Source of the DNA: Terriglobia bacterium
Lineage (GTDB): Bacteria > Acidobacteriota > Vicinamibacteria > Vicinamibacterales > CAVVIG01
DNA length: 64,000 nt
NCBI GenBank assembly: GCA_020073005.1
Contig: JAIQFX010000012.1
Span: 1-64,000, forward strand
Direction: 5' to 3'
Shown: in pieces, positions 11,206 to 13,437 of the stretch
Numbering within the stretch: the first letter of the stretch is position 1
How the letters are laid out: the number at the start of each line of letters is the position of its first letter
Notes under the pieces: generated by a model
What the model saw: only the letters and a program-made list of their open reading frames with translations
Databases searched by the model: none
What the model was told of the DNA's origin: nothing
Translations under genes and position numbers: made by a program

Positions 11206-11268
11206 GTCGTTAGTCGTTAGTCGTTCGTCCTTGGTCAGCTAGTCACCAGCCACCAGCCACTAGACGAC
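11206..11268. repeat. Degenerate heptamer array (GTCGTTA to AGCCACC)
   Basis: Nine units in strict 7-nt register: GTCGTTA twice, GTCGTTC, GTCCTTG, GTCAGCT, AGTCACC, AGCCACC, AGCCACT, AGACGAC. The last units contain the TAG stop of the radical SAM gene (11260-11262, minus strand). Confidence 0.75.
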
Positions 11269-13437
11269 TGGCTTATGTAGCACTTCCGAAGGCTCCTGCG
11301 CCTTCGACTTCGTTGACCCCGGGGCCCCTGTCCCCCGGCGTCCGCCGAGGCCTTGAATCGTGAGCGTCGGCTGCTCCTTGAGCACGTGCTGGCGGTAGAG
11401 CTTGGCCATTTCCGCGTTCCTGGCGGCTTCAGCGGCCAATTCTTCCGGCGTCTTTGTCTTATCCGGGGCCCCTCCCCCGGAGTGCTTGCGCGCGTTCGCG
11501 GCCATCTTCTCTTCGCGCGCGTTCTTCGCGATGCCGAGATCGTCGAGGTCGGTCTGCGCCCCGGCGCGGACCGCTTCTTCGTTCAGCTTCAGCGAGTGCG
11601 CCGTCGAGTTCAGCTCGACGCTCTTGCCGCCGGCGAAGATCTCGTGACGGCCGTGCTCCTCGTACCACTTGGTGAGCGTCGCCGTCATGTGCATCTTCTC
11701 GATGATGTTGCGCCAGCCGATGCCGGTGTTGTAGGCGCAGAAGGAAATCTCGCCTTGTTGGGTGGCATACGGGATGATGCACATCTCGGTGCGGCGGAAG
11801 TCGTAGTTGAACAGATCCTGGAACCACATGCCCGCGATGAACAGGAAGTTCCAGCGGTCCGCCCGGCGCTTCGCGATGTCGTCCATCGTCCGGTCGCCTT
11901 CGACCCGGCCGTACTTGCCCTTCTCGGCCGACTTCGTCGCGCCGAAGGTCTTGTCGAACTTCTTCAGCAGGTCGGTCAGCTTGAAGTGCGTCGGCGAGTT
12001 GAACGAGTCGTAGTTGCGGACGAGCGAGAGCGCCATGCCGACGTTCGACCAGAAACGGCTCCGGCCGGCGTCGGTCACCTGCTGGATGTCGCGGGCGAGT
12101 CGCTCGGCCCTGAGGAACTTCGTGACGGGCACGGCTTCCTTGGTTTCCTTGTCGATCATGACCGCCATGCCGACGCCGCAGTTCGGGTGGCAGCCGCAGG
12201 TCAGCTGTCCGAATTCCTTCTCGGCGCCGTGCGTCACGTCGGCCCAGTCGGTGAAGCTGCCCATGAACGAGATCGGGAACCAGTCGCGGACCGGCTCCCC
12301 GATGCCCGTCTGGTTCTTCACGTCGTGCGCCAGGTGCGACAGCGTGTAGCGCTGCGCGGCGCGGCGCTCGGGCGTCACTTCTTCGTCGCGGCCCGTGAAC
12401 GAGACGGGCTGGAACGACAGGAAGTTGATCTTCTTCGGGTTGTCGAGCGCGAACTCGATGATGCGCCCGACCTGCTCGTTGTTGACGCCGTTGACGATCG
12501 TCACGACCGGCACGATGTCGACGCCGGCAGCGTAGAGGTTCTCGATCGCGCGGAGCTTGACGTCGAACAGGTTGCCGACGCGGCGGTGCGAGTTGGCGGC
12601 GTTGCCGATGCCGTCGAACTGCAGGTACGCGTAGCGCAGGCCGGCGTCCGCCGCCTTCTTCGCGAATTCCGGATCCTTGGCGAACTCGATGCCGTTGGTC
12701 GCCGCCTGGACGCTGTTGTAGCCGACCTTGCGCGCGTAGCGGACCGCGTCGAGGAAGTACGGCGAAATCGTCGGCTCGCCGCCCGAGAACTGCACCGACA
12801 TCTGCCGGCGCGGCTTGATGCTGATCGCGTTGTCCAGCACCGTCTTGATGTCGTCCCAGCTCAGCTCGTGCACGAACCCGACCTGGTTCGCGTCCATGAA
12901 GCACGGGTCGCACATCATGTTGCAGCGGTTCGTCAGGTCCACCGTCAGCACCGCGCCGCGGCCGTGCTTGATCGTGCTGCTGCCGTGGTTGTGCAGCTTC
13001 TCGTCGTTGTGCGCGCCGATGTCGCGCCCCGGGAACACGTCTTCGAGGTGCTTGAAGAAGTCCGTGTCGATCGCCATCACGTCTTCGAAGTGGCCGTGCA
13101 GCGGGCAGTCCTTCACCATCAGGATCTTGCCGTCGCGCTCGAGAATCGTCGCCTTGATCTCGCCGACCTTCTCATTAAGAAGGACGCTGACGTCCTTCTT
13201 GCCGTCGAGAATCGCCTGCCGCGCCTCGCGCGTGCAGGTCGGGCAGAGCGAGTCGGTCTCGCGCGGCCAGCCGAGCGGCGGCTTGGTCTTCTCGTAAGAT
13301 TTCAGTAACGGCTTGTCCGACCACTTCGGCGTGAACGACGGGCGCTGATTGATCTTGTTCAGGTTGTTGAACACGACCCAGGCGCCGTTGGCGGCAATCG
13401 AAAGCCCCTTTTCGACGAACTTGATGGGCTTGTGCAT
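11260..13437 (-). CDS. Tes/Mss-like radical SAM protein (candidate membrane-spanning-lipid synthase)
   Basis: A 725-residue radical SAM enzyme. An N-terminal CPTC (Cys65, Cys68) and CPLHG (Cys111) form a rubredoxin-like pair typical of the tetraether lipid synthase (Tes, MJ0619-type) family; then the SAM-cluster motif CNMMCDPC (Cys172, 176, 179), QFSGGEPTISPYF, and further Cys groups TCGCHPNCG and MCIIPYATQQGEISFC that could hold auxiliary [4Fe-4S] clusters. Tes couples the ends of lipid tails to make membrane-spanning lipids, and bacterial relatives (Mss) have been linked to diabolic-acid-type lipids, which Acidobacteriota make. That role here is an inference from family. The C-terminal about 70 residues are low complexity and contain two GC-rich repeats. 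It is monocistronic, with a strong terminator. Confidence 0.85.
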   Translation of the reverse strand: MHKPIKFVEKGLSIAANGAWVVFNNLNKINQRPSFTPKWSDKPLLKSYEKTKPPLGWPRETDSLCPTCTREARQAILDGKKDVSVLLNEKVGEIKATILERDGKILMVKDCPLHGHFEDVMAIDTDFFKHLEDVFPGRDIGAHNDEKLHNHGSSTIKHGRGAVLTVDLTNRCNMMCDPCFMDANQVGFVHELSWDDIKTVLDNAISIKPRRQMSVQFSGGEPTISPYFLDAVRYARKVGYNSVQAATNGIEFAKDPEFAKKAADAGLRYAYLQFDGIGNAANSHRRVGNLFDVKLRAIENLYAAGVDIVPVVTIVNGVNNEQVGRIIEFALDNPKKINFLSFQPVSFTGRDEEVTPERRAAQRYTLSHLAHDVKNQTGIGEPVRDWFPISFMGSFTDWADVTHGAEKEFGQLTCGCHPNCGVGMAVMIDKETKEAVPVTKFLRAERLARDIQQVTDAGRSRFWSNVGMALSLVRNYDSFNSPTHFKLTDLLKKFDKTFGATKSAEKGKYGRVEGDRTMDDIAKRRADRWNFLFIAGMWFQDLFNYDFRRTEMCIIPYATQQGEISFCAYNTGIGWRNIIEKMHMTATLTKWYEEHGRHEIFAGGKSVELNSTAHSLKLNEEAVRAGAQTDLDDLGIAKNAREEKMAANARKHSGGGAPDKTKTPEELAAEAARNAEMAKLYRQHVLKEQPTLTIQGLGGRRGTGAPGSTKSKAQEPSEVLHKPVV
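11319..11338. repeat. GC-rich element copy A in the radical SAM C-terminus
   Basis: CCGGGGCCCCTGTCCCCCGG, with terminal inverted CCGGGG. It is nearly identical to copy B (11463-11480), and both fall in the poorly conserved C-terminal tail. Confidence 0.5.
11463..11480. repeat. GC-rich element copy B in the radical SAM C-terminus
   Basis: CCGGGGCCCCTCCCCCGG, copy A minus the central GT. Encodes part of HSGGGAPDKTK. Confidence 0.5.

Follow-up and report, generated by a model that had tools for sequence, protein, structure and literature searches.

A divergent Tes-clade radical SAM protein of Acidobacteriota: a candidate iso-diabolic acid synthase

The locus and its encoded protein

The window (the whole stretch of DNA analysed, 64,000 nucleotides of contig JAIQFX010000012.1 from the Terriglobia bacterium assembly GCA_020073005.1) encodes a protein of 725 amino acids at 11260-13437 (-), in an open reading frame with an ATG start and a TAG stop. 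A preliminary description made from the letters had placed a gene here, and the exact ATG-started frame, preceded by AGGAG, bears this out. The GC content at codon positions 1, 2 and 3 of 0.59, 0.41 and 0.92 is a coding-type pattern. The following features were recognised, all on the minus strand:

11260..13437 (-): Tes-clade radical SAM gene, 725 aa, of the long acidobacterial subfamily (from reading frame, ribosome-binding site, 7tol match, tree and fold)
13445..13449 (-): AGGAG ribosome-binding site about 8 nt 5' of the ATG, read directly
13357..13428 (-): predicted N-terminal 24-residue helix, residues 4-27 (AF2 helix at high pLDDT; mean hydrophobicity 0.55, moderate)
13234..13245 (-): rubredoxin half-site C65-P-T-C68 (PF23545), matching the C9X2C12 motif of PMC9433317
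13096..13107 (-): rubredoxin half-site C111-P-L-H114, aligning to C33X2H36 of MJ0619
12967..12999 (-): remodelled region, residues 147-157, at the position of the Tes [Fe4S4]N ligands, which are absent in the alignment
12901..12924 (-): radical SAM CX3CX2C motif, C172, C176 and C179 (PF04055 and alignment)
12178..12198 (-): C414-G-C416-H-P-N-C420; C420 corresponds to C338 of MJ0619, a putative [Fe4S4]C ligand, and C414 and C416 are extra
11827..11829 (-): M537, equivalent to Met439 of Tes, the labile cluster ligand (invariant, 73/73 long rows)
11737..11781 (-): C553, Y557 and C567, equivalent to C455, Y459 and C470 of MJ0619 (alignment)
11263..11664 (-): C-terminal extension, residues 592-725, partly disordered (pLDDT <50 for 691-725), with no MJ0619 counterpart in the alignment
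11172..11201 (-): terminator-like hairpin of 13 pairs (10 GC) with a T-rich tail, starting 59 nt past the stop

The CPTC/CPLHG pair and the CX3CX2C cluster of the preliminary description are both present (C65/C68 with C111/H114, and C172/C176/C179). So are the two extra Cys groups that it named (C414-X-C416-X3-C420 and C553/C567), but together these make up one Tes site, [Fe4S4]C, plus two additional cysteines, and the motif set described as that of the Tes family overlooked the absence of the N-terminal [Fe4S4] cluster. The gene was also said to have its own terminator; the 13-pair hairpin is there, but terminator-like matches near the gene end stand close to the expectation from shuffles (3 found, 2.5 expected). 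No RNA elements were found in the window with Rfam. The N-terminal helix may make contact with the membrane, as far as the model can suggest. A second radical SAM gene of the window (430-aa open frame), at about 59612-60103 (-), did not come up as a match to the Tes model.

Family assignment and predicted structure

The best solved relative is the Tes of Methanocaldococcus jannaschii, MJ0619 (GDGT-MAS; 7tol, 7tom; Lloyd 2022, Zeng 2022), and the phmmer E-value of 1.2e-64 against 7tol means that the named Cys/His motifs are not due to chance. The Pfam domains are Radical_SAM (PF04055) and the HMPTM zinc ribbon (PF23545). Relatives of the protein in Acidobacteriota are of three types: long, short (around 540 aa, with 36-39% identity to the window protein) and archaeal-like (L071 and L072). 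Among NCBIfam models the Tes model NF045702 ranks first with 314.9 bits, below its curated cut-off of 450, followed by the TrsS model NF045646 with 214.3 bits, where the cut-off of 490 is not reached. Long genes from nine other Acidobacteriota genomes score 310-324 bits against NF045702, while the cut-off is passed, at 523-619 bits, by the three proteins of short or archaeal-like type that were scored. The 725-aa protein would work like Tes; with its score under the curated cut-off and one metal site missing, it is not classed as a Tes equivalog. Neither plasmid relatives of the protein nor viral-contig relatives were found.

The AF2 model, built from a 51-row alignment, has a mean pLDDT of 88.8; confidence is lower (73) in two blocks close to the lost cluster, residues 141-150 and 171-180. 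Foldseek placed 7tom and 7tol on top (7tom E 1.3e-37; TM by target 0.87), and after Tes came MoaA with TM 0.51-0.53. The protein is predicted to retain the whole Tes fold. Besides the common fold (TMt 0.87), it shares with MJ0619 the radical SAM cluster, the rubredoxin motif, Tyr459 and the full putative [Fe4S4]C ligand set including Met439. However, the two are just 28% identical, and the window protein lacks the [Fe4S4]N ligands and differs further by a rubredoxin-domain insert of about 22 residues, the N-terminal helix, a C-terminal extension of about 130 residues and the extra C414-X-C416.

Three other groups come nearest to it. The short bacterial Tes (from Acidobacteriota, Planctomycetota and elsewhere, and part of the homologue set described by Zeng 2022 and Halamka 2022) belong to the same clade and have the catalytic residues in common with the long proteins, but keep all four metal sites. 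For Mss of Thermotoga maritima, tail-to-tail coupling of fatty acyl lipids is proposed and a Tes catalytic architecture reported (PMC13274423), and the enzyme was assayed in E. coli (PMC11604127). The TrsS-like proteins are members of the same wider class-D family, with the HMPTM zinc ribbon and the CX3CX2C motif of the window protein, but they fall outside the Tes clade and do not have the Tes C-terminal ligand set.

Phylogeny and distribution

The main tree comprised 44 Tes-type rows and six TrsS-like rows as outgroup, T. maritima Mss not being among them. The Tes-type and TrsS-like rows were split with 100/100 support. Archaeal Tes and the archaeal-like L071/L072 branch first, and the remaining bacterial Tes rows arise from within them (100/99). 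The long clade lies in turn within bacterial Tes, with supports of 99/92, 95/85, 91/66 and 99/95 along the path, on a stem of 1.16 changes per site that indicates strong divergence. Bacterial Tes homologues thus nest in archaeal Tes, and the 725-aa gene belongs to a derived long subclade. The Tes-like character claimed in the preliminary description is upheld by this placement inside the Tes clade and by the kept fold and catalytic residues. A first tree with a MoaA-type outgroup was set aside for the TrsS-like-rooted one on account of very long outgroup branches; the sister group of the long clade was unchanged with these more distant outgroups. In the long clade the window gene stands among members of its family and order, a position that favours vertical inheritance.

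Relatives at E <= 1e-40 were found in 166 of the 297 sampled Acidobacteriota genomes: about 143 have the long gene (650-725 aa) and 23 carry shorter forms alone. Of the genomes sampled from the window's order, 25/30 have the long gene. Many genomes carry two long paralogues, and in the genome of the window the 725-aa gene is the only Tes-type gene. Beyond Acidobacteriota the long type is rare (3/199 genomes in the phylum of Kuenenia, 2/80 around a Latescibacterota centre), and it was found in 0/198 genomes of the phylum of G314, titled Deltaproteobacteria. Named relatives of the short type include those of Bryobacterales, Solibacteraceae and Acidobacteriaceae, and those of Thermoplasmatota archaea at 46-57% identity. 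Single in-frame stops (TAG, TGA) were seen inside some long- and short-type genes (G245:C39:126381-128405, G279:C270:3791-5659 and G006:C4:78596-80119), and reflect either decay or sequencing error.

Metal sites and active-site residues

According to the structural report, MJ0619 has four metal sites: a rubredoxin iron (C9, C12, C33, H36), [Fe4S4]N (C73, C77, C80 and a His), the CX3CX2C radical SAM cluster and [Fe4S4]C with the labile Met439, Tyr459 being strictly conserved in archaea (PMC9433317). An M439A variant of MJ0619 remained active. The CX3CX2C cysteines were counted here as C98, C102 and C105. Judged by conservation, C338, C455 and C470 would be the three cysteines of [Fe4S4]C.

Conservation was counted over 73 distinct long sequences, 91 short rows and five Tes. 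Bar fragments and rare single exceptions, the 73 long sequences retain the residues of the rubredoxin, radical SAM and [Fe4S4]C sites; C65 and C68 are each present in 70/73, and the ligand set C338/M439/C455/C470 together with Y459 is kept in essentially all. At the columns of Cys77 and Cys80, by contrast, a cysteine occurs in 78/91 short rows and 5/5 Tes but in 0/73 long rows, which have H and S instead. The alignment therefore indicates that the N-terminal [Fe4S4] cluster was lost in the long clade. TrsS-like proteins show the opposite pattern, with [Fe4S4]N kept and the [Fe4S4]C set broken.

C414 and C416, beside C420, are present in 73/73 long rows. Outside the long clade C414 is found only in the sister rows L058-L060, and its gain therefore probably preceded the loss of the N-cluster. 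The new pair may compensate for the missing cluster. The [Fe4S4]N cysteines were also lost independently, by two changes on the tree, in 13 archaeal Tes of Methanomethylophilaceae/Methanomassiliicoccales type (L114, L117, L126, L129, L132, L135, L136, L137, L139, L140, L144, L147 and L151), which suggests that the loss need not end the coupling chemistry.

Genotype and iso-diabolic acid

Of seven acidobacterial subdivisions surveyed, 1, 3, 4 and 6 are reported to contain iso-diabolic acid (PMC13274423). This acid is one of the major fatty acids of Chloracidobacterium validum BV2-C (PMC12816986), in whose genome (G096; chromosomes of 2,659,040 and 1,000,103 bp) one Tes-clade gene was found, of the long type. 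The preliminary description had proposed checking gene presence against lipid content, and this producer gives a positive answer so far. The match of genotype to phenotype consists of this one firm strain and otherwise of agreement at subdivision level. The long gene is present in Chloracidobacterium (subdivision 4), in G125 and in Solibacter/Bryobacter-type genomes (subdivision 3). G125, a single contig of 7,480,314 bp from the window's order, agrees in size with Luteitalea pratensis of subdivision 6, the published genome of which is 7.5 Mb (PMC5462960).

The two other Tes-like matches of C. validum fall in the TrsS-like group of the tree, and the idea that any Tes-like gene of this strain might be the iso-diabolic acid enzyme was dropped. 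The presence of these two paralogues counts against the role proposed for the long gene. TrsS-like radical SAM proteins (L245, L246, L247, L248, L249, L250 and L252) were observed in Chloracidobacterium, G125 and G094; relatives of the one from G125 also occur in mycobacteria and haloarchaea, and relatives of the L247 type lie on mycobacterial and haloarchaeal plasmids.

Solibacter usitatus also counts against an iso-diabolic acid role: it makes brGDGTs with iso-diabolic acid below detection (PMC10087280), though Solibacter-type genomes carry both the long and the short gene.

Genomic neighbourhood

The preliminary description had noted no lipid genes beside the gene, and indeed none adjoin it in the window or adjoin its relatives in the 40 related neighbourhoods inspected. 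A conserved lipid operon was accordingly discarded, and the fact that no gene neighbourhood links the long gene to lipids weighs against the iso-diabolic acid role. Nor was a conserved peptide or partner gene found in these 40 loci. A 91% identical orthologue in the same family has the same next gene, c7. Three Acidobacteriaceae-type genomes have a long and a short Tes gene no more than a few kb apart (G121:C21, L220; G073:C24, L222; G265:C7, L221); in G265 the two follow one another on the same strand. A flavoprotein of the pyridine-nucleotide disulfide oxidoreductase type was read from the sequence at 19624-20649 (+) of the window, and a relative of it lies beside the long gene, or close to it, in G088, G269 and G199; it is possibly an electron donor, or its proximity is due to chance.

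Elsewhere in the window's genome (G000 contig C1, ~36626-40174 (-); L251:3627-7175) is a PlsA/Ger-like protein of 1183 aa with two BadF/BcrA ATPase domains and DUF2229, with a second gene directly upstream. Ger and PlsA are indistinguishable from sequence (PMC11868695), and the protein is possibly an ester-to-ether reductase, so that ether-bound membrane-spanning products are possible in this organism. A DUF2229 relative is present in G088, and none was found in G096 or G125.

Proposed function and alternatives

The descent, fold, catalytic-site conservation, N-cluster loss and distribution of the long gene are supported by the analyses above. We consider it probable that the 725-aa protein is a Tes-type radical SAM lipid synthase, and most likely the acidobacterial iso-diabolic acid synthase. 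The points against a Tes-type synthase are the score of 315 bits under a cut-off of 450, the long stem and the one missing metal site of four.

The mechanism suggested here is transferred from MJ0619, with substrate and product proposed by analogy. The CX3CX2C cluster would cleave SAM, and the 5'-deoxyadenosyl radical would abstract a hydrogen at the tail end of an iso-branched chain, acyl or alkyl, in a phospholipid. The resulting carbon radical would then be parked as a C-S bond on the C-terminal [Fe4S4] (C420, C553, C567 and the labile M537) until a second SAM produces a radical on the second chain, the attack of which would form an sp3-sp3 C-C bond. The product would be iso-diabolic acid (13,16-dimethyl octacosanedioic acid) within a membrane-spanning lipid. 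The N-terminal helix and a second pocket may serve to hold bacterial iso-C15 lipids.

It is also conceivable, though rather unlikely, that this is a Tes-type tail-modifying enzyme with another product (the ether-only brGDGT branch, or an inter-chain cross-link) and that iso-diabolic acid is made by a different enzyme. The PlsA/Ger-like protein could supply ether lipids for such a product, and the close long and short genes of three genomes, like the many genomes with two long paralogues, would fit a division of labour. However, G096 and G125 have the long gene and no DUF2229 protein was found in them, so an ether-only role fits poorly there.

The long stem branch, the lost cluster, the score under the Tes cut-off and the gene's solitary position in its genome could instead indicate that the protein no longer acts on lipids and that its substrate is a peptide or a small molecule, as for other class-D radical SAM enzymes (TrsS-like). 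We think this improbable, because the [Fe4S4]C ligands, with the labile Met among them, are conserved together with the counterpart of Tyr459, unlike in TrsS-like proteins, the whole Tes fold is kept, and the 40 loci offered no conserved peptide or partner gene. Although the assembly consists of 179 contigs with 4.63% contamination, a decaying or mis-binned copy, functionless in the source organism, is very improbable given the intact frame with its strong ribosome-binding site and coding-type GC, a tree position that follows family and order, and above all the 91% identical orthologue with c7 as next gene, which largely refutes it.

Significance

Tes homologues were listed in Acidobacteria by Zeng 2022 with a proposed part in brGDGT synthesis (PMC8941075), Halamka 2022 proposed brGDGT synthesis via a Tes homologue for S. 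usitatus (PMC10087280), and the role of acidobacterial Tes was still unconfirmed as of 2025 (PMC11868695). In the literature surveyed we found no description of the long/short split, of the [Fe4S4]N loss with the new Cys pair, or of the single-gene case of C. validum. Sequences of the long type may already be counted as Mss in the 2022 study by Sahonero-Canavesi.

Palaeothermometers for soils and lakes are based on iso-diabolic acid and the brGDGTs made from it. The candidate for the coupling enzyme is narrowed here to one defined subfamily, and the long gene is the best single-gene candidate for iso-diabolic acid in many soil Acidobacteria. The question is directly testable, since the long gene is the only Tes-clade gene found in at least one strain that is cultured, lipid-tested and completely sequenced.

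The repeated loss of [Fe4S4]N bears on the role of the auxiliary cluster in the Tes mechanism. It may be, at a little less than an even chance, that much of a phylum ranking among the most abundant in soil makes its membrane-spanning lipid with a Tes of archaeal origin that has shed [Fe4S4]N, gained an invariant C-X-C pair next to the catalytic cluster and operates with three metal sites. If so, sp3-sp3 carbon coupling would run on three metal sites rather than four.
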